This document shows positions 41,797 to 56,534 of a DNA stretch of 59,861 bases, one piece after another. The notes beneath the pieces are model-generated. The model had not been told where the DNA came from, made no database searches, and saw nothing but the letters and a program-made list of their open reading frames with translations. Position numbers and translations under genes: made by a program. This DNA is from Bdellovibrionales bacterium (GTDB taxonomy: Bacteria; Bdellovibrionota; Bdellovibrionia; Bdellovibrionales; UBA1609): assembly GCA_023301025.1 (NCBI GenBank), contig JALZUR010000014.1, positions 1 through 59,861 of the forward strand, read 5' to 3'. Positions within the stretch are counted from its first letter, which is position 1, and each line of letters starts with the position of its first letter.

Positions 41797-44700
41797 TTAA
41801 TTGTTACTTAGCACACTATTACATGTAAGTGTTGCACTCGTAGTATGTGAGCCTGATTCCGTAGGTGCTAAATTTTGTATAGCAGCACGTTTGGAGTTTA
41901 GTTCTTCAAGTGCAGCTTCCCCAGAGTTTAGACGTTTTTTTTCATTTCTCTTGTTAAATCTATCTGAAATAAAATATGGGAGAAGAGAAAATGATCCTAA
42001 GCTTGTAACAGCCGCCATAGTTTTACCTAAAAATTCACCTAAAGCATTTTTTGGAAGGCTTGGATCTTCAATAAGTCTGTTGACCCCTTCAGTTCCAAGT
42101 TTTGTAATTCTTTCTGGAAAACGTTCAAATGATTCATACTTGTTAGTAAATAGACTTTGTGTTTTTTCTATTAAAGTCTCTGTTCCTGGGATTTTAGATG
42201 TTAAGCCTTTAAGTGATTCCAGCCCTTTGTCTATGAGTATAGTTGGAGTGTCACCACCAAATATCAGCCGTAAAAATGCTCTTGAGCCCTGCCTAACGTT
42301 GTCTTTTATAGTTAACATGTCTCCAGCAACATTTTCTAAAATTACAATTCCAAAAGCTTGCTCAAAAACAGAGAAGAGCATTCTTTTTTTCTGTAAAGAA
42401 TTAGATATGTAGTCTTGAGCCTTAGGGTGTGCTCTTAGTTTTGTTGGAATTCTACTAGACACCCAGGCTTTTGAAAGCTCAAAAGATTGATCAATTTTTA
42501 AAGCCACACCAGCTAGTGGTGTTATAAAAATAATGGCATAAGTTGCTAGAAACATTCCTACATCAATACGACCTAAACCCCACAACTGCGTAACAAGTAT
42601 GGTCGTTGCTGCAGCAGACATATTAGATAAAATAATTTGTAAGTTATAGATTTGGTTTTGCATCCATTTGTTATCAGGATGTTTCATAAGGTTTTTAAGT
42701 TGAAAACGCCAAAAGCCTTTTTGTTGGTCATGAAAAGTAGCTGCCGAGTCAAATCCCTTAAGGTCATCAATTCTAGCATCAGACAGAATTTTTAACCAGG
42801 TGCCTCCCATAAGGTTCATGATAACCCCCGGTATAAAGCCACTGTAAAAAAGCATTCTAGAGTAGTAGTTAAGGTGAGTCTCTGTATCTAGTCCATCTGG
42901 GTTAAATGGCTGTAAAACACCGCTATCAACCCCTGCATAAATAACCATAGCTGAAAGAACACCAAGTGGTAGAGATACTTTTAATGCTGCAAGTTCCGAC
43001 CTAGTAGCACGTTCAATAGCATTTGGGTTGCTCTTAACTCTTGTTTTAACAGTGTTGTATCTACCAAGAGCCATGTTTGCAGGATTAAGTTTAGTTAAAG
43101 GATAGTGTCTAAAATTATTTTTTGCTCGTGTCGGAGAAATTATTGCAAATGCTTTTTCTTTTGCCCATTTAGTAATAGGAGCCATATTAAGTTCACCAAT
43201 AATTTTATCTAAAATAGAGTTAGATTCTTCAGAACTAAAAGTCTTAATTTTGACGTCACCTTTTCTAATTGCATTCTGCAGCTTTGTGCCAGTTCTTGTA
43301 GGACCAAAATCTTTGATAGCTTCAGCATCTTCTTCACTGATTTCTAAATTGTTAGTCTTGATAACTTCAGACCAGTAATCTTTCATCAAAGACTCATAAG
43401 TTCTTGTAAACACCAACCTAAAATAAGAACGCTCTTTTACTGTTAGTTGTTTTTTAAGCTTTTTATCATAGAGGTTGATCACACCTGTTGAAACTTTACC
43501 ATTTAGTTGTGCTGAATCAAAAATAGCAAGAATCTTATCTGGATCTTCAAGGCTCTCTAAAAGTGCAGATTGTGCTTTTTTTACCGCTAGTTTAATAATT
43601 CTAGGTTCTGCATTCTTAGTTAAGACTTCAAAACGTCTAAGCTGATAAAGACTTGGTTTTGAATATAAAACTTTAGACAGCACTCTGTTTTCAGTAACAT
43701 CAATAGGGTTCATTTTTGATGCTGCTAGCTTTAATTTTAAAAGCCATCCATTTAAGCCTGGGTTGTAGGTTGACGGGAAACGCTGCGAGCTTAGATCTTT
43801 TGTGGTCTCTTGAAAAAACATTGGATAGACTAAAGGCATAGCCCACATCTTGGGGTTTAATGCAAAAGATCTCGGGACAAAAAAGAAATTCCAAATTTGC
43901 GCACCTGTTTTAAAAAGTGTTCGTAAAGAGGCCTGGCTTAAATAAAACTGTCTAAGTGCAGAAATAGCTATTCTGCTGTTATCAAATAAGTTGTTACTTG
44001 CAACACTTGAAATTAGATTTCTTAAACCTGAAAAGTATTTGCCATTATAAAGTATATCCTTACTGTTTTCATAAACTTTAGCACTCAGAGTTCTTAAAGG
44101 TTTAAAAATTCCAAGTTGCTTAGCTAAAGTAGATTTCATTCTTTGTAGTCTACTAGGATTATTACTTTTATAATTAAGTTCCCTTAAGTTTAACCTGTCT
44201 TTTTCATCAGCATTCAACTGCTTGATATGTTGCTCTAGAATATCAACATCTTCAGGTGAGATGTTTAGTACATCACTCCCAGAAATTTTTCTTTCAGCCT
44301 CTGCTCTTTGTTTATCAAAGGTTTCTTTATTTTTTGTAGCAGCTCTATGTAGTGCATTGATCCAAGTTTTTTGATCTTCACTTAAAGAGTTTCTACTTTT
44401 TTTAAGACTTCCAAGAATATTAACAGTGTTTGATGCTATATGAATAACTCCAAAAGCAAAAAGTGGAATCTTAAGAACGCTCACTAAACCCCATAAGAAC
44501 TTTGGCCATCTTCCATCTTCGATATAATTTGGATACACGTGAGCCACACCTGTAGTTGAAGTTATTGTGGCATCTACTGAAAGATCTCCGTAATTTTTAC
44601 CGTAGTCAATGTGTGAAAGGTAACCCATGTAGTGGGCATGTGTTGCACTTATCAAATCTAGAGATTGATACATAATGGCCTGAGCCGTTGGATGAAGAAC

Positions 44701-46335
44701 AGATGCTCCAAGTGTAGCAGCAAAAGCAATAGATCCAAACTTTAGCATTCTGTAAGCTAGGCTTTCTTGAACATGTTTCCAAGATGCGCCTCTGTCTTTT
44801 GATGTTTTTGCTGTTGCTACTGCTAAAAGAGAAGCTTGTAGTGCAGGTGTTCCTTCTGGTCTTGGGTGCTTTAGATACTGCCAAAGCATTTTTAATCGTG
44901 TTGTTACTCGTCTTCCATTAAACAAAGCTTGGTTTGTCTCTGTAAGTGGAGTCTTCATATTAAGAGCTGAGTTTAAAAGAGTGTGCTCATCATCAGTAAT
45001 TTTTCCATCTTCTAAAGATGTAGCGACAACTTTTTTAAGTTGTTCTCTTTTGTCATCTGTAGCACCTGACAATGCATGTAGACGATCAGTCTCTTTTTTA
45101 ATTAAGTCTTCTGTTCTTAAAGCTTCATTCACTTGGCTGTTCATAAGTTCAGATTGTGATTTCATGGACTTTTGGTAAAACTCATGAATCTCACCAATAA
45201 GCTCAACTGCTCCTTCTTGGGATGCAGGATCTACAAGTGCAATGTTTGTATTTAATATAACCTGATTAGACTTAGATAAAACATCTAACTGATCTAGTGT
45301 TAGTTTTATATCATCAACAATAAGTTTTTGTCCTTCAACTCTAACTGATTTTGGCTCATTCTTACTGTTTAATGGAAGAGAGAAAACAGGTAGTGGTGCA
45401 TTACCAATGTTTGATGCCGCATATTTTAAATCAATAAACTTTAAGGTGCTGTAGTTATCATAAAAGATAGAATCTTTTTCATAGAAAACTAAAAATTTTC
45501 CAAAAAATGTTACAAAACTTACTGGGACATCAAAGTTATGTAAAACCTCACCATCAGGCTTTGTTATTTCAAAAGATGCTGTATCTTCTAAAGAAACCAT
45601 TTCAGGGCTTGAAAAACTTGGAGATAAAGAGTCTTTAAAGTCTTTTTCATTTAAAACTTCTACGATGTTACCACTGTTGTTTTTAATATTAATTACTTTA
45701 TCAAATGTAAAATGATGCCTTGTAGAAAGTTCTTGATCAATAAAAGAGTGAAGAGCTTGTTTAGATTCTGAGGGATGGTTGTCTAGAGTTTCTTCAAGAT
45801 ACATTTGAGAAATTGCTAATTTCGTTTCAAGTGTCTTTTGCATACTTACTAATACAGAGCGCTTTTTTCCTACAACTGCATCATTAGAATTTTCTAGATC
45901 AGTTGAATCAACAGTCTGGTCAAATATAGCTATTATTTTTTTAGAGTCTTCTATTGAACCCTGGTATTCCTTAATTTTTTGTTCATAGTGAGCTTTTTTC
46001 TGAGTGTAGTTATCTATGGCCTCTTGTTCTTTAAGGGCATCTATTTTATCTCTTCTAGGATCAACTACCTGTTGCCTGACCATCATAAAGGGATCAAGAG
46101 AAGAAGGGTGAGTGGCACTAGTACCAAGCACTTCTTTTCTTAATTGATCTATCTGATCTTGATTTGTGTATTCAGGATCTTTTGAAGATGTATTTGAAAC
46201 TTCACCTGATTCGCTTTTCCCTCCACCATGGTCTACAGACGCGTATGTAATAACAGGGCTTAATATAAGACTTACACTTAAGAGTTGAACTAAGAAAATC
46301 TGGTAAAATCTGGTGCTTGAAAAACTTTTGATCAT
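41797..46335 (-). CDS. Very large exported/membrane protein of unknown function
   Basis: 1512 residues, the longest gene here. A signal peptide (I-F-L-V-Q-L-L-S-V-S-L-I-L-S-P-V-I-T-Y-A) is followed by a charged, probably coiled-coil region (about 95-200, K-K-A-H-Y-E-Q-K-I-K-E-Y). Hydrophobic segments follow at about 560, 640, 1130-1180, 1250-1300 and 1455-1475. The middle (650-1100) is basic and helical. Two small residues stretches resemble no catalytic motif. The C-terminus ends T-C-N-S-V-L-S-N-N. It could be an envelope scaffold or secretion component; I cannot assign a family. Confidence 0.75.
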   Translation of the reverse strand: MIKSFSSTRFYQIFLVQLLSVSLILSPVITYASVDHGGGKSESGEVSNTSSKDPEYTNQDQIDQLRKEVLGTSATHPSSLDPFMMVRQQVVDPRRDKIDALKEQEAIDNYTQKKAHYEQKIKEYQGSIEDSKKIIAIFDQTVDSTDLENSNDAVVGKKRSVLVSMQKTLETKLAISQMYLEETLDNHPSESKQALHSFIDQELSTRHHFTFDKVINIKNNSGNIVEVLNEKDFKDSLSPSFSSPEMVSLEDTASFEITKPDGEVLHNFDVPVSFVTFFGKFLVFYEKDSIFYDNYSTLKFIDLKYAASNIGNAPLPVFSLPLNSKNEPKSVRVEGQKLIVDDIKLTLDQLDVLSKSNQVILNTNIALVDPASQEGAVELIGEIHEFYQKSMKSQSELMNSQVNEALRTEDLIKKETDRLHALSGATDDKREQLKKVVATSLEDGKITDDEHTLLNSALNMKTPLTETNQALFNGRRVTTRLKMLWQYLKHPRPEGTPALQASLLAVATAKTSKDRGASWKHVQESLAYRMLKFGSIAFAATLGASVLHPTAQAIMYQSLDLISATHAHYMGYLSHIDYGKNYGDLSVDATITSTTGVAHVYPNYIEDGRWPKFLWGLVSVLKIPLFAFGVIHIASNTVNILGSLKKSRNSLSEDQKTWINALHRAATKNKETFDKQRAEAERKISGSDVLNISPEDVDILEQHIKQLNADEKDRLNLRELNYKSNNPSRLQRMKSTLAKQLGIFKPLRTLSAKVYENSKDILYNGKYFSGLRNLISSVASNNLFDNSRIAISALRQFYLSQASLRTLFKTGAQIWNFFFVPRSFALNPKMWAMPLVYPMFFQETTKDLSSQRFPSTYNPGLNGWLLKLKLAASKMNPIDVTENRVLSKVLYSKPSLYQLRRFEVLTKNAEPRIIKLAVKKAQSALLESLEDPDKILAIFDSAQLNGKVSTGVINLYDKKLKKQLTVKERSYFRLVFTRTYESLMKDYWSEVIKTNNLEISEEDAEAIKDFGPTRTGTKLQNAIRKGDVKIKTFSSEESNSILDKIIGELNMAPITKWAKEKAFAIISPTRAKNNFRHYPLTKLNPANMALGRYNTVKTRVKSNPNAIERATRSELAALKVSLPLGVLSAMVIYAGVDSGVLQPFNPDGLDTETHLNYYSRMLFYSGFIPGVIMNLMGGTWLKILSDARIDDLKGFDSAATFHDQQKGFWRFQLKNLMKHPDNKWMQNQIYNLQIILSNMSAAATTILVTQLWGLGRIDVGMFLATYAIIFITPLAGVALKIDQSFELSKAWVSSRIPTKLRAHPKAQDYISNSLQKKRMLFSVFEQAFGIVILENVAGDMLTIKDNVRQGSRAFLRLIFGGDTPTILIDKGLESLKGLTSKIPGTETLIEKTQSLFTNKYESFERFPERITKLGTEGVNRLIEDPSLPKNALGEFLGKTMAAVTSLGSFSLLPYFISDRFNKRNEKKRLNSGEAALEELNSKRAAIQNLAPTESGSHTTSATLTCNSVLSNN

Positions 46336-47065: not shown

Positions 47066-47078
47066 GTGATGATTGATT

Positions 47079-47780
47079 ATGAAGCTCTTAGTACACCTTT
47101 TTTTTCTGATATTTTTTTGCAGTCCTCAAACGGTTCTTGCAAAACAAGCCACTTGTAAAGATATTTTAGGAACATTTATACAAAGATCTCAAAGAGTAAA
47201 TGATTCATATTATAATATTATTGAACTTGCTCCTAAAAAAAGGTTTAAAGATTTTGAAGAACTTTATAATGATGAAGTTTTTTTAGGCGTCAGTCGAGAA
47301 GGGCATTTTTATTTAAAAGTTGGTGGCAAGATCTTTGAGGGTGGGTACTTTCCTCTACCTGTGCATTCTGGTGAAGATTATAACTATGATGGCTATTTGA
47401 TTCACTTTTCAAATGTTTCTAATGATAAAGTTGATAAGTGGAACTCTAATTTTAAAAGTGGTGTGCAAGGTATATCTTTGAGTTGTGTTAGAACTGCTTG
47501 TAAAGAATTGTATCGACACTTTGATATTAAAATTTCGAACAAATTTGTACCATTGCTCTTTTCTAATCATGCCTTAAACCAAATTCTTAAAAATGGATTT
47601 ATTGATTCGAATGGAGAAGAAGTTTCTTTTAGAATTATTAAAATCTCTAAAAAAGCACCTGAGCTTTCACATCTTAAAAAAAATCTTATCGAGCAAGATC
47701 TTGTTTATGGCGTGTTTTCATCTTTAGTGTTTTTTGCTTTAGGAGGGGGACTTTATAATGCATATTTATATTTTTTATAA
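47079..47780 (+). CDS. Exported protein with C-x-x-[ILV]-L N-terminal motif and C-terminal membrane helix
   Basis: 233 residues from the ATG at 47079 (a TTG two codons upstream is less likely). The signal peptide (L-L-V-H-L-F-F-L-I-F-F-C) is probably cleaved at V-L-A|K-Q, leaving K-Q-A-T-C26-K-D-I-L at the mature N-terminus. A beta-rich body follows, with a C-S-C-type pair around L-S-C-V-R-T-A-C, and a last membrane helix (F-S-S-L-V-F-F-A-L-G-G-G-L). Likely a periplasmic domain tethered to a membrane. No family recognised. Confidence 0.7.
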   Translation: MKLLVHLFFLIFFCSPQTVLAKQATCKDILGTFIQRSQRVNDSYYNIIELAPKKRFKDFEELYNDEVFLGVSREGHFYLKVGGKIFEGGYFPLPVHSGEDYNYDGYLIHFSNVSNDKVDKWNSNFKSGVQGISLSCVRTACKELYRHFDIKISNKFVPLLFSNHALNQILKNGFIDSNGEEVSFRIIKISKKAPELSHLKKNLIEQDLVYGVFSSLVFFALGGGLYNAYLYFL

Positions 47781-47781
47781 T

Positions 47782-48837
47782 CTATATAAGGCTAAAAAAA
47801 GACAATATCTCTAATCTTCTATTTAGAAAAGCATCAACTTCTTTTTCAGATAGATAAGGACTAAGTACATTATGCCAGTGTTGAGGTTCTAATATTCTTA
47901 ATTTTTTTATTACGTCAGGGCGTGAATGAATTGCATGGTATAAATTTTTTGACTCATCGAGTTTTTTCTCACTGATTGGATCAAAATGATTTTGTAATTC
48001 ACTAAAATTATCATACCTCTCAGTGTTTTTTGTGCTGCTTGTTTTGTGTCTAATAGTAGTCATTTTAATTTTTTCATGTCTTAAGAGCTTAAGTAAAGGT
48101 ACACTGTGGACTTTAAAAGTTTCAGAGTCGTGATCTATAGAAATATTACTACCATTTATGGTTCTTAGTCGATTGCCATCATGGATATCATTCTTGTTTA
48201 TCATAAAATTAAAAAGTTTAATTTCATTTGGTATTTCACTTGTGGATGTATCTAAATCCAATACTTTTATTTGAACTGATGCCATAAATCCTTGATGTGG
48301 CCTTTGAACTGTTAGTGGAACAAGATTAAATCCAAGCTCACGATCTATAATGTATGCAGCCACTTCTTTTCCAGAATTTGATTTATTTCTCCATTTTAAA
48401 ATAGCTTGAAGACCATTTTCTAAAGTGATGAGTTCAGGTAGGTTATCGCCCATTGGTAGCATTTTCTTTTTAACTATTTTTCCGAAACGCAAAAATAGCG
48501 AAAGTAAATATTCTAACTCTAAACCTTGATTTAAATCAGCCCTCATTTCATTCCAAATATAGATCTGTGGATTTAATAAAAAGTTGTCAAATTCTTCTTC
48601 AATAAAAGATCTAGATTCACGACCTGTAAATTTCTTTACTCTATTTTTTAATGTTTTTTGAGATTTTAATTTTGACAATTGCAAAAGGCTAATTTTAGAT
48701 AATTTTTTATGCTCGTATGAGCTAAATGACTCTTTATTTTTTAAAAGTGCGCTACATGAAGTGTCAGCGCTAAAAGTTTTAACAGTAAAAAAGCTAAGAC
48801 TAATAAAAAATAGTATGTAGTTTTTGTGTCTAATCAC
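47782..48837 (-). CDS. Exported PI3/4-kinase-fold protein
   Basis: 351 residues, signal peptide cleaved near F-S-A|D-T-S, then C28-S-A-L-L. The central domain matches the PI4K/HipA/Fam20C-like kinase layout: Lys148 in Q-A-I-L-K-W-R, Glu158 in G-K-E-V-A-A-Y-I-I-D-R-E-L-G, the strand L-V-P-L-T-V, a catalytic loop N214-K-N-D217-I-H-D-G-N222, and the metal Asp235 in I-S-I-D-H-D-S-E-T-F. All key positions are occupied, so phosphotransfer activity is plausible. The substrate is unknown and an extracytoplasmic location raises the question of its ATP source. Assignment is by motif only. Confidence 0.7.
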   Translation of the reverse strand: MIRHKNYILFFISLSFFTVKTFSADTSCSALLKNKESFSSYEHKKLSKISLLQLSKLKSQKTLKNRVKKFTGRESRSFIEEEFDNFLLNPQIYIWNEMRADLNQGLELEYLLSLFLRFGKIVKKKMLPMGDNLPELITLENGLQAILKWRNKSNSGKEVAAYIIDRELGFNLVPLTVQRPHQGFMASVQIKVLDLDTSTSEIPNEIKLFNFMINKNDIHDGNRLRTINGSNISIDHDSETFKVHSVPLLKLLRHEKIKMTTIRHKTSSTKNTERYDNFSELQNHFDPISEKKLDESKNLYHAIHSRPDVIKKLRILEPQHWHNVLSPYLSEKEVDAFLNRRLEILSFFSLI

Positions 48838-48988: not shown

Positions 48989-50677
48989 ATGAACAAGCTT
49001 GCATATATGGTGTGTTTTATATTTTTTGCAAATCCTCTTTTAGCTGCTACTGAGTGTTTGAATTTATTAAACGATCCTACTTTTAGGCCTTCTAAAAGCA
49101 CTCTTCAAAATATTAAAGATCAGGTATTAACACCTGTGTTTTGGGCAAGACAAGCTATTAGCAATGGTAAAATGATCTATCATGTTTTTGATACTTTTAA
49201 GCTTCGACCTATCACAGGTGGTGCAATTTCTCTAGATCACCCTTGGGTCACAGGTGTAGATCCAAATACTAAAGATTATATTTGGTTAAGTAATATTATT
49301 TATAAAACTAAATCTAGAGGTGATTTTAAGTTTAATGATGAGCAAATGGTTACAAACACTGGTAAATACTTAAGTGCTTTGGTTCGTCAATCTGCTCGCA
49401 CTGATAGGTATCCAGAGGGTATGCCTTCAGGATTAAGAAGAATGCCTCATGGATTAAACTATATTCATGGTTCATCACATTACAATAGTGGTTGGATTAT
49501 CTTTAACAATTTAGAAGAAGCTTTTCTACATTTTTCAAATCAAGATTTTCTAAATGATTTAAAAAATTTTGCTAATGAGTCTAAAAGAGAAGTGATCCTT
49601 TTATTTCGTGAGACAAATTACGATCCTCGAGAATATGGAAAATTTTCAGGCTATTTAAGAACCATTCTTCCGTGGTACTCTAATGTTAACGGTCCTCAAA
49701 AACAGGTTCATTGGGGAAACAGCTTTCCAGTGCCCGTAGTAAATATGATTAATGGAAATTTTACTAATGATCTAAAAGCATTACGTTTAGGTGATGTGGA
49801 TTCAATTGTTAGACCTGCAGTTGATGAAAACTACTTTAGTAGCGAATACGTATCAGGTGTAAGATCACGACCATCTTTTTCTGACCTAATTTTTGATTAT
49901 GCTATTGAACTTAGGGTAAAAGCTAGAGGTAAAAAAGGAAACAGTTTTTTTGTAGATTCTAAAAAACTTCAAAATGATAAATTAAAATGGAAGAGTATCA
50001 AAGGGAGTAAAGCTACACCTAATGCACGTGTTGAAGAATTTTATGGAAGTTATATAAACATAAGTACACTTAAAGAAGAGCAAATAAATGTTGAATCTGT
50101 AGTTTCTCTGCCTGAGAGTTTTGATCCTCGCTTTGATATTATTTATGCTCTTAAATCTGATGGTACCGGTCACAGCTATATTTTAGCCGATGGTGTTGAG
50201 CTTCATGCTTCAGTAGCTTTTAGAAACAGGACATATACTCAGAACAGACCTAGACCTGAGCACTTAAAATCTACAGCTTTTATAGTTTTAAAAGATTTAC
50301 CAGAAGAGAGTGTTAGATCAGTTGGTAGAGAAATTAGAGATTTAAGAGGAACAAAAACACTATCTTGTGTAGTTGGTAACTGCCGTGCATTAAGTAATGG
50401 TGCTAAATTAGAACTGACAAAAGGTCATCTCAACCTTAGTTTGCCGATTGATGCTTTTAAAAAATTAATTCTTGAAGATTTAAGACTCGGCAGTACTGGT
50501 GAAAAAGTAAATGTAGAACTTTATAAGTCGGGTGATCTCTCACTTGAAGAGCTTCTTGAGATGCAAAAAAAACAAGATTATAAAATGAAGGTTGTTTACC
50601 CTTTTTCCTATTTGTTTGGTTTTCTTAAAAATCGCATTTTTGACGATGAAGAGTATATTTATAGAGTTAAAGACTGA
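48989..50677 (+). CDS. Exported protein with C-x-x-[ILV]-L motif, unknown function
   Basis: 562 residues. Signal peptide M-N-K-L-A-Y-M-V-C-F-I-F-F-A-N-P-L-L-A, then A-T-E-C23-L-N-L-L. The mature body is large and globular, rich in Arg, Asn and Tyr, with a His/Tyr-rich segment (M-P-H-G-L-N-Y-I-H-G-S-S-H-Y) near residue 155 that could be an active or metal site. A second domain after about residue 330 holds L-S-C-V-V-G-N-C-R. I do not recognise the family; an enzyme or toxin-like domain is possible but unproven. Confidence 0.7.
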   Translation: MNKLAYMVCFIFFANPLLAATECLNLLNDPTFRPSKSTLQNIKDQVLTPVFWARQAISNGKMIYHVFDTFKLRPITGGAISLDHPWVTGVDPNTKDYIWLSNIIYKTKSRGDFKFNDEQMVTNTGKYLSALVRQSARTDRYPEGMPSGLRRMPHGLNYIHGSSHYNSGWIIFNNLEEAFLHFSNQDFLNDLKNFANESKREVILLFRETNYDPREYGKFSGYLRTILPWYSNVNGPQKQVHWGNSFPVPVVNMINGNFTNDLKALRLGDVDSIVRPAVDENYFSSEYVSGVRSRPSFSDLIFDYAIELRVKARGKKGNSFFVDSKKLQNDKLKWKSIKGSKATPNARVEEFYGSYINISTLKEEQINVESVVSLPESFDPRFDIIYALKSDGTGHSYILADGVELHASVAFRNRTYTQNRPRPEHLKSTAFIVLKDLPEESVRSVGREIRDLRGTKTLSCVVGNCRALSNGAKLELTKGHLNLSLPIDAFKKLILEDLRLGSTGEKVNVELYKSGDLSLEELLEMQKKQDYKMKVVYPFSYLFGFLKNRIFDDEEYIYRVKD

Positions 50678-50804: not shown

Positions 50805-51596
50805 ATGAAATTTTTAGTTCTTTCTTTTCTACAAATATATTCTTCAATATGCTTTTCAGTGACCTGCGCTTCGTTGTTAGCAGAAAACGGTGGATACACT
50901 TACTTAGATAAAGGGCAAACAGGAGTCGTTTATGTAAAAGAGGGGCTTGCATTTAAGATACCATATAATCCAGATGCTCTTGATAGCTATTTGAGAGATG
51001 GCTACGAAGTAGTTAGTCATGAGTTTCAACTGTTAGCTACACTTAATTCTATTATTACAAAATCTAAAATTAAAGGTATAAGACCTTTAAGGTTCAATAA
51101 AGCTTCTAAGCTAGAAGATCCTATTCTACTTCAACTAGCTCAAGATCGAGTTGAGACAGTTCTTGAAACTGAAACATGGGTAGATCGAATAAATTTAAAT
51201 GGTGTTTTAGTAAGTGAACACGTCATAGGTCGAAACTATTATAATGATATTATTAATTCACCCTTAGTTTCAGATGCTGAAAAGCGACGCTATGCTACTA
51301 GATTCCATGAAATACTCTTAGCTTTAGAGAAGTATATATTAAGTGACCAAAGTGATTTTAATTTTATTATGCGTGAAAAAGTAGAAGACAGCGATTTTGA
51401 TGATGAATATGACTATTATAATTTCATTGAAACCCTTCGGCCTAACTTCGAAAATATTCCTAACAGTATAGATCTTAAGCTGTTAAATCCTTTCGGAGAT
51501 GATGGAGTGTTAAAAGCATTTACAATAAGTGTTCATGCTAGTCGAAATGTGATTGTTGATGAAAATGATGATTTCGTGATTATTGACCCACACTAA
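50805..51596 (+). CDS. Exported protein-kinase-like protein with altered catalytic loop
   Basis: 263 residues; signal peptide ending I-C-F-S|V-T-C21-A-S-L-L. Kinase-like features: Gly-loop D-K-G-Q-T-G-V-V-Y-V, Lys51 in L-A-F-K-I-P-Y, helix-C Glu73 in S-H-E-F-Q-L-L, hinge-like V-S-E-H-V-I-G, and N248 followed by V-I-V-D-E-N-D-D-F-V-I-I-D261-P-H at the very end. The catalytic Asp expected in D-x-H-x-x-N reads Ser242 (I-S-V-H-A-S-R-N), so it may be a pseudokinase or use another base. The protein ends at the metal-Asp motif, lacking a C-lobe tail. Confidence 0.65.
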   Translation: MKFLVLSFLQIYSSICFSVTCASLLAENGGYTYLDKGQTGVVYVKEGLAFKIPYNPDALDSYLRDGYEVVSHEFQLLATLNSIITKSKIKGIRPLRFNKASKLEDPILLQLAQDRVETVLETETWVDRINLNGVLVSEHVIGRNYYNDIINSPLVSDAEKRRYATRFHEILLALEKYILSDQSDFNFIMREKVEDSDFDDEYDYYNFIETLRPNFENIPNSIDLKLLNPFGDDGVLKAFTISVHASRNVIVDENDDFVIIDPH

Positions 51597-54701: not shown

Positions 54702-55583
54702 GTGAAAAATAAATTTACTATATCTTTAATAAGCTTTTTTATTTTTTCTTTTACAACAGTTATTCAAGCTCAAATGTCTTGTCTTGAAGTTTTGAGTGAA
54801 TTGTCTATTACAACTGAACATAAGAATATAAGTACAGAGCCTATACTTACAGTAGATGGTGACACCTATTGGGGCTACTATAAATGTTTAAGATGTGGTG
54901 AAAGAACATCTGCAAAACCTAATATTCATAATGATCAAGCCTGTTACAATTGTGGTGCAGGACACACAACAGAAAAATATAGTCCTCCTGCACTTTTTAA
55001 AAAAGATGGGAATATATACTTAGTGGATCCTGGTCGGTTAGTGACTAGTCATGCTGAAATGGAACTTGCTGAGAGTGGTGAAACTGAATCGTGTCCGTTT
55101 TGTGGGAATTCTCAGTTTCAAATAGACACTGAATGTGTCACCTGTGGTGCAAGGGCAGAAAATCCAAGTGATATTAAGCAGTCTATGAAAGAACTAAGTA
55201 GAGGGAATACATCTGCTACTGCTAAAACACCTCATATGGACCTTTCACTTTCATCTTTACGAGAAACAAGAAATCGGACAAACAAAAAGTTTTTTACATC
55301 TGTTGCAGCAGTGTTAACTGTTTCTGCTGCCTTCGGAACTGTTTGGGGGTTTCAAACTTATACTACAGAGGCCCATGTAACCTCATTTGATAAAAAAGAG
55401 GTTGTGGTATCTTATGAATCTAAAAAAGGTGCTTTAGAATCTCTAACTTTGGGACGGTCTGGCATAGAAACCCAACCGTGGAGAGTTGGTGATACTTTAG
55501 AACTTTATTTTATAAATTGGTCTACAACACCTAAAGCCGCAGAACGCCTAGATGGTAATGTATTTAAACCCGTTAAAAATTAA
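54702..55583 (+). CDS. Exported zinc-ribbon protein with membrane helix
   Basis: 293 residues, GTG start. Signal peptide cleaved near V-I-Q-A|Q-M, leaving S-C27-L-E-V-L. Two zinc-ribbon units follow: C-L-R-C-G with C-Y-N-C-G, and C-P-F-C-G with C-V-T-C-G (four C-x-x-C knuckles). After a polar stretch comes a membrane helix (F-F-T-S-V-A-A-V-L-T-V-S-A-A-F-G-T-V-W-G, about 198-220) and a small beta domain. Zinc ribbons on the non-cytoplasmic side are unusual. It is coupled to the Gly-rich protein gene, three bases upstream. Function unknown. Confidence 0.7.
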   Translation: MKNKFTISLISFFIFSFTTVIQAQMSCLEVLSELSITTEHKNISTEPILTVDGDTYWGYYKCLRCGERTSAKPNIHNDQACYNCGAGHTTEKYSPPALFKKDGNIYLVDPGRLVTSHAEMELAESGETESCPFCGNSQFQIDTECVTCGARAENPSDIKQSMKELSRGNTSATAKTPHMDLSLSSLRETRNRTNKKFFTSVAAVLTVSAAFGTVWGFQTYTTEAHVTSFDKKEVVVSYESKKGALESLTLGRSGIETQPWRVGDTLELYFINWSTTPKAAERLDGNVFKPVKN

Positions 55584-55604: not shown

Positions 55605-56408
55605 TTACAAACTTTCTATGTTTTTAAAGCCTATGAAAAGGCTTAGGCGACCAGTCTTTAAATCACTGGGCTGGAAAACTGGACCAGAATGATAAGTTGG
55701 AACAACTTCAGGAACATCATAAGAACGTTTATGGGTTGACATGACTACAGATTGCCCGGGGTAGATCTCAACGACTTGACTTGCCTGAGGTTCAAAATTT
55801 GATGCGTAAACGGGAACCTTAATCGTTGCGACTCTTGTGCCACGTCCTGCCAAGTTAGTTATCGAGTTTAAATAAAGAGCCCCTCCGTCTCTATGCCAAG
55901 TATCAACAGGGGTTCCGTCTACAAAGAATAAGATCTTAGTTGCTTCTACAGTTTCATCTTCAGGCAGCGCTTGGTTTACTACCTTTTCAACATACTCTAC
56001 ATATTTAACGATTCTACTGTCCAAAAGGAATTCAATCTGAGATCGATGAAATGCTAAAACATTTTCGTGAGTGACAGGGTACCCCGGGAGGCTGTTCTCC
56101 TCTAGGTCTCTAATTTCAGATCTAGCCCATTCATGAAGTTCAGTGACAAAATCTTTTTCGAAAAAATGAGAAGAATTCAACAACGCAAAGCCAGCATTTT
56201 CAGGATTTAAATCCTTTTTCAACCTGGCAAGATCCTCAGTTGAGAATCCGTTAACTAGCACTTCAGAGCAGGACATCCCAAAAGAAGAGGGTAAATTAAA
56301 GAATCCTGAGATCAGTATAAAGCAAACTAATTTGGTTTTGAAAGATGTTAGATTCAAAGTGTATCTAAAAAGACATTTTATTGTCTCATAAATAGTAGTT
56401 TTGATCAT
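55605..56408 (-). CDS. Exported iron/2-oxoglutarate dioxygenase-like protein
   Basis: 267 residues from the ATG at 56408, which has AGGAG 8 bp upstream; an in-frame TTG at 56444 does not. About 25 residues precede the hydrophobic core of the signal sequence (L-V-C-F-I-L-I-S-G-F-F), cleaved near S-S-F-G, leaving M-S-C47-S-E-V-L. The facial-triad pattern is present: H172-R-D174 in T-W-H-R-D-G-G, distal His240 in T-Y-H-S-G-P, and Arg254 in G-R-L-S-L-F for the oxoacid. Such enzymes hydroxylate small molecules or proteins; substrate unknown. An exported member is unusual. Confidence 0.68.
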   Translation of the reverse strand: MIKTTIYETIKCLFRYTLNLTSFKTKLVCFILISGFFNLPSSFGMSCSEVLVNGFSTEDLARLKKDLNPENAGFALLNSSHFFEKDFVTELHEWARSEIRDLEENSLPGYPVTHENVLAFHRSQIEFLLDSRIVKYVEYVEKVVNQALPEDETVEATKILFFVDGTPVDTWHRDGGALYLNSITNLAGRGTRVATIKVPVYASNFEPQASQVVEIYPGQSVVMSTHKRSYDVPEVVPTYHSGPVFQPSDLKTGRLSLFIGFKNIESL

Positions 56409-56534
56409 CTTAAGTGCTCCTAAGTTTAAAAAACTAATAATCAAATTGAATATTTAAAGTACTTGATAAGTTGAGTCTATCTTAGTTGTACTGATTATAG
56501 GTTTTATAAAGATTAGAAATAATTACAAATAGAG

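Follow-up and report, generated by a model that had tools for sequence, protein, structure and literature searches.

Introduction

Phosphorylation outside the cell is usually regarded either as an animal trait, carried out by Fam20, or as a task of effectors that are delivered into host cells. Fam20A, Fam20B and Fam20C are animal secretory-pathway kinases with conserved disulfide bonds—Fam20C phosphorylates secreted proteins and Fam20B a xylose—and PI4KII, which phosphorylates a lipid, is cytosolic and membrane-bound through palmitoylation. Bacterial kinases of related fold include CtkA from Helicobacter pylori, reported to be catalytically active on Ser/Thr, to target host cells and probably to leave by type IV secretion through a C-terminal signal (PMC5536186), and HipA, which acts in its own cytoplasm and has HipB as its partner (PMC9758233). 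Work on the evolution of Fam20 published in 2018 drew on searches of animal genomes, and bacteria are absent from its text (PMC5865150).

In this report we compare with these systems a predicted exported kinase from a Bdellovibrionales bacterium, which apparently represents a known fold in an undescribed exported bacterial family. We found no description of this family in the open-licence literature, from which the phrase "bacterial Fam20" is absent and in which a single paper mentions SCO1664, and a Legionella pan-kinome survey comparing many kinase-like families does not mention Bdellovibrio. If real, a widespread family combining a Fam20-type fold with an ordinary Sec signal would imply phosphorylation of targets outside the cytoplasm by Gram-negative bacteria. 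The origin of the ATP would then become a testable question, and the family would also bear on the origin of Fam20 itself.

The gene and its genomic setting

The gene lies in the window—the whole 59,861-nucleotide stretch of DNA that was analysed, which corresponds to contig C14 in a draft genome of 2.03 Mb—and is present in one copy in that genome. Its coding sequence occupies 47785-48837 of the minus strand, with a GTG start at 48837 and a stop at 47782-47784. No gene on the same strand adjoins it: it converges with 47073-47780 and diverges from 48989-50677. These two adjoining ORFs of at least 120 aa both look exported, and the gene is part of a run of exported-protein genes extending from about 47 to 56.4 kb. 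No operon partner was found at the locus, there is no terminator-like site near the gene and no excess of promoter-like sites there, and PADLOC and PHROGs returned nothing informative. The features of the protein, all computed, are as follows.

47782..48837, minus strand: whole ORF of the predicted exported Fam20/PI4KII-like kinase, 351 aa, stop included
48769..48837, minus strand: predicted Sec signal peptide, residues 1-23, cleavage between S23 and A24 (heuristic scan; low pLDDT in residues 1-43)
48484..48738, minus strand: N-terminal helical region, residues 34-118, five predicted helices (AlphaFold secondary structure)
48268..48477, minus strand: kinase N-lobe, residues 121-190, five strands and helix alpha-C (AlphaFold, block mean pLDDT 86-97)
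48394..48396, minus strand: K148, predicted ATP-binding lysine in strand beta-3 (K in 62/65 and R in 3 Bdellovibrionota homologs)
48364..48366, minus strand: E158, predicted alpha-C glutamate and salt-bridge partner of K148 (E in 62/69 Bdellovibrionota homologs)
47785..48228, minus strand: kinase C-lobe, residues 204-351, including R340 (AlphaFold)
48172..48198, minus strand: catalytic loop NKNDIHDGN, residues 214-222 (D217 in 67/70 and N222 in 66/70 Bdellovibrionota homologs)
48133..48135, minus strand: D235, predicted DFG-like metal aspartate in ISIDHD (D in 66/69 Bdellovibrionota, 42/42 Acidobacteriota and 34/34 Actinomycetota homologs)

A predicted kinase fold closest to Fam20 and PI4KII

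The predicted structure is kinase-like. In the AlphaFold model, which was built with 23 sequences and has a mean pLDDT of 78, block means are 86-97 for residues 81-240 and 84-97 for residues 291-350 (the last block excepted), and residues 1-43 fall below 50. Strands are predicted at 121-126, 135-139, 144-148 (with K148 at the end), 176-181 and 184-190, a helix spanning 152-168 holds E158, and a second helix at 204-213 precedes the catalytic loop, which is followed by the helices of the C-lobe. This strand and helix order is canonical for kinases and, together with the VIA-align comparisons, describes a two-lobed kinase fold. The best VIA-align scores are for Hydra Fam20 (Z 16.0, 3.2 A over 216 residues), human Fam20C (15.5), Fam20A (15.1) and PI4KII-alpha (15.0, over 198 residues), and the top Foldseek match is likewise Fam20 (E 2e-6). 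Lower scores were obtained for CtkA (PDB 3akk), which has a compact PI3/4K-like fold (12.7), for actin-fragmin kinase (10.9), for HipT, whose fold is related (9.7), and for MavQ (9.2). The first-pass annotation had recognised a PI4KII/Fam20C-like kinase pattern, to be given up if structure prediction yielded no kinase fold; it was right, as the core of the model is confident and kinase-like and its best matches are Fam20 and PI4KII.

Sequence profiles lead to the same two groups. A profile made from 18 family members (A5) matches Hydra Fam20 with an E value of 5.1e-12, Fam20A and Fam20C with 2e-9, and PI4KII with 3.7e-9, so that Fam20 is the best match by sequence profile as well as by structure. 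Fam20 and the family profile have in common the motifs around the alpha-C glutamate and the catalytic loop (AEIAAFxLDRxLxxxxxP and FDFLIGNxDRH), and their alignments pair AEVAAYELDRKLGLNLVPLTV with a stretch of 22 residues and FDYLIANRDRH with FDFLIGNMDRH. Both are also exported enzymes, export being predicted for the bacterial family. There are clear differences, however, since the query kinase is bacterial, is only about 16-20 percent identical to Fam20 across aligned residues, and lacks disulfides of the Fam20 kind because C28 is its sole cysteine.

Individual sequences are less easily classified. On its own the query kinase has no recognised Pfam family, including PF06702 (Fam20C) and PF00454 (PI3_PI4_kinase), and a phmmer search with it against the PDB gave chance matches only. 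Among the 18 relatives, PF06702 weakly matches 4 (best E 4.8e-4), HipA_2 weakly matches 6, and PF00454 matches 16 individually, with E values up to 0.1. The closest named bacterial family by sequence is the TIGR03843/SCO1664 family of Actinomycetota, which all 18 A5 members match (E up to 0.1) and to which the query kinase has a weak NCBIfam match (E 2.8e-4), its 20.3 bits lying far under the curated cut-off of 172.4. A Pfam match to pre-PUA_NIP7 (E 0.023) was set aside as being below the cut-off and located before the kinase core.

A widespread but patchy family

A search for related loci with the query kinase alone found none. That it belongs to the family is clear from a BLASTP comparison with a Bdellovibrio homolog (E 3e-20) and from a leave-one-out family profile, which gives the query kinase 133.8 bits, whereas the highest score among 1000 shuffles was 4.9. 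Genome searches within the order found relatives in five genomes (G056, G013, G050, G046 and G038; E 7e-16 to 7e-4). A profile built from the six sequences found in the order (A1) has matches in 70/369 Bdellovibrionota genomes, and A5, which was used for the other phyla, has matches in 23/149 Acidobacteriota genomes (with at most 11 per genome), 43/141 Myxococcota genomes (weak), 72/149 Actinomycetota genomes and 6/185 Gammaproteobacteria genomes; these fractions are only roughly comparable, because Bdellovibrionota were counted with one profile and the other phyla with another. Organisms found in a separate scan include, within Bdellovibrionota, Bdellovibrio, Bacteriovorax, Halobacteriovorax and Spirobacillus and, outside this phylum, Acidobacteria, Aminicenantes, Myxococcota, Micromonospora and Aliikangiella. 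A tree of 173 domains tracks phyla (7 label changes versus 87 in shuffles), and the placement of the query kinase in it rests on a long branch.

Two side observations concern copy number. In Bdellovibrionota, the kinase profile matches L098 and L089 (single open frames of 1662 and 1639 aa) at two or three separate places, which suggests tandem kinase domains in one protein. In the Acidobacteriota search, three genomes (G457, G467 and G370) have 7 to 11 matches to the kinase family each, a possible lineage-specific expansion.

Catalytic residues

The catalytic residues had been placed from the sequence at K148, E158, N216-D217-I-H-D-G-N222 and I234-D235-H-D237, and all are exactly at these positions, SIDHD corresponding to residues 233-237. 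In a census based on the family alignment of 173 domains, in which D217 is the predicted catalytic base and N222 a predicted metal ligand, the complete K-E-D-N-D set is present in 53/64 scorable Bdellovibrionota homologs, and at least one of the five is lost in the other 11. The query kinase is intact at all five (K148, E158, D217, N222 and D235). R340, near the C terminus, is conserved family-wide (44/45 aligned Bdellovibrionota homologs). Actinomycetota members differ in that H replaces N222 in 29/34.

Two positions next to the catalytic sites depart from the family consensus. The catalytic loop reads DRHxxN in most relatives and DIHDGN in the query kinase, which thus has I218 where 61/70 Bdellovibrionota homologs have R, and W149 replaces the P found in most homologs; reduced or altered activity is therefore possible. 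L085, the nearest relative on the tree, reads DLWGGN, and judging from this loop the two proteins may represent a sub-branch in which position 218 is hydrophobic. Kinase-like folds with changed chemistry exist, and it could be argued that the fold has been kept here for the transfer of AMP (as in SelO) or glutamate (as in SidJ), or for non-catalytic binding. The unusual loops of the query kinase and L085 and the loss of catalytic residues in 11 of the 64 homologs are in line with this possibility. However, all five catalytic residues are kept in the query kinase, the two changed neighbours are non-catalytic, and the residue between D and H is variable in HipA and related kinases, so we regard a change of chemistry as improbable.

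Predicted export signals across the family

The kinase carries a predicted export signal, and such signals recur in its relatives. Signal peptides were called with a custom heuristic, not SignalP, that looks for a basic start and a hydrophobic core followed by a cleavage site or a lipobox. The leader is laid out as MIRHKNY, ILFFISLSFFTV and KTFS, with ADTSC after the cleavage site, where it presents T-x-S; read as a whole, the N terminus is MIRHKNYILFFISLSFFTVKTFS followed by ADTSC, with a basic start, then a hydrophobic core, then a T-F-S/A site. The heuristic scan found no lipobox in this leader. A signal peptide had been claimed in the first-pass annotation, and we find a plausible Sec signal peptide with cleavage at about S23/A24, so that the query kinase, by the same heuristic, has the N-terminal signal peptide or lipobox used to score the family.

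The export census took in all start codons preceding the kinase core, applied a single rule across all groups and was restricted to complete homologs. By this heuristic, a signal peptide or lipobox is present in 51/67 Bdellovibrionota, 35/39 Acidobacteriota, 21/30 Myxococcota and 5/8 Gammaproteobacteria homologs, versus 0/31 in Actinomycetota, which served as a negative control. Five Bdellovibrionota members (L005, L018, L031, L034 and L100) have signal peptides by eye, though they were negative in a count restricted to the first 45 residues, and L021, L033, L045 and L046 are lipoproteins by the heuristic scan. Predicted export is thus a trait of the kinase family in many Gram-negative bacteria. 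In Bdellovibrio bacteriovorus, Sec signal peptides bring a reporter out of the cells (PMC12622784).

A more mundane reading is that the hydrophobic N terminus is an uncleaved anchor and that the kinase domain is cytoplasmic, with nothing unusual about it. A hydrophobic stretch is by itself no proof of cleavage, and homologs L097 and L105 resemble membrane-anchored forms. Yet the basic residues of MIRHK precede the stretch, so that under the positive-inside rule the remainder of the protein would be outside even if uncleaved, and the T-F-S/A site follows the leader. The related concern that the signal peptide is in fact an internal membrane helix is unlikely to apply, because relatives repeatedly carry clear signal peptides or lipoboxes although their leader sequences are unrelated. 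We therefore consider a cytoplasmic kinase domain very improbable.

Site of action and source of ATP

We think it probable, though by no means assured, that the protein is an active kinase that is exported and works outside its maker's cytoplasm, drawing its ATP from prey or from cells that have lysed. In this scheme the activity itself, the class of substrate, the final location and the origin of the ATP are inferred. The Sec pathway would carry the kinase across the inner membrane, after which the signal peptide would be removed and the protein would fold outside, and the mature enzyme would then act in its maker's periplasm or on the far side of the outer membrane. ATP would sit between the lobes, held by the K148-E158 pair and by metal on N222 and D235, and D217 would serve as catalytic base, directing the substrate hydroxyl, with phosphotransfer proceeding through D217. 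The nearest fold relatives act on serine, a sugar or a lipid, and by analogy the substrate here may be a hydroxyl group on a protein, a sugar or a lipid that lies outside the cytoplasm. CtkA offers a precedent, by analogy, for a kinase of related fold acting outside its maker, although its likely route is type IV secretion with a C-terminal signal, whereas a Sec signal peptide is predicted here.

Kinases require ATP, which is normally confined to the cell interior, and we know of no ATP pool in the bacterial periplasm. If the bacterium is a predator, the likeliest source would be the contents of its prey or lysed cells. The first-pass annotation had likewise named prey or host cytoplasm as a possible supply and had seen in this a fit to a predatory lifestyle; the kinase-like structure is well supported, and the fit to predation is not established. 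Only a fifth of the sampled Bdellovibrionota genomes (70/369) have members and signal-peptide versions are common in Acidobacteriota, which to our knowledge are not intracellular predators, so predation neither requires nor uniquely explains the family, and prey ATP is a possible source that does not account for the family as a whole. No recognised predation genes flank the kinase gene, its flanks being other exported-protein genes.

This setting also fits a kinase that is kept in its maker's own periplasm or on its outer surface and modifies the maker's envelope or secreted proteins, much as Fam20C does in the Golgi, with no role in predation and with ATP from lysed neighbours or else a different donor. 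Homologs with predicted export are common, part of the Acidobacteriota having several copies, and the lipoprotein versions L045 and L046 (from Bacteriovorax and Halobacteriovorax) suggest a location on the maker's membranes. Such a kinase, however, would require ATP where no supply is known, and we found no phosphoprotein or partner gene; we give this reading a real but minor chance of being right. A bolder proposal, which we regard as unlikely, is that the family is ancestral or sister to animal Fam20 and acts extracellularly in several Gram-negative phyla, its Bdellovibrionota members using prey ATP to phosphorylate components of the prey or the bdelloplast.

Neighbouring exported proteins

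Several minor observations concern the genes around the kinase. Six exported proteins of this neighbourhood, which show no overall similarity by eye, have in common a motif C-x-x-[LIV]-L a few residues from the expected cleavage site: CSALL in 47073-47780 (plus strand), CLNLL in the kinase itself at 47782-48837 (minus), CASLL in 48989-50677 (plus), CKDIL in 50805-51596 (plus), CLEVL in 54702-55583 (plus) and CSEVL in 55605-56444 (minus). In the window and 20 other stretches of the genome, C-x-x-phi-phi is found at the mature N terminus of 8/103 signal-peptide proteins versus 0-2 at six control offsets, and in other Bdellovibrionota loci there is a small excess (5/124 versus 0-2). The motif is possibly a sorting or maturation mark.

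The 263-aa exported protein encoded by 50805-51596 (plus strand) has kinase-like fragments by eye, GQTGVVYVKEGLAFKIP near its start and FVIIDPH at its very end. By eye it looks like a degenerate exported kinase, but we make no such claim, as it had no relatives in 58 other genomes, no Pfam match and a pLDDT of 35 in a single-sequence AlphaFold model. The 1512-aa product of 41797-46335 (minus strand), which is either exported or resides in a membrane, contains several hydrophobic segments and matches nothing in Pfam, and the exported protein encoded by 54702-55583 (plus strand) has two Cys4 zinc-ribbon-like stretches (CxxC ... CxxC), which are unusual outside the cytoplasm.
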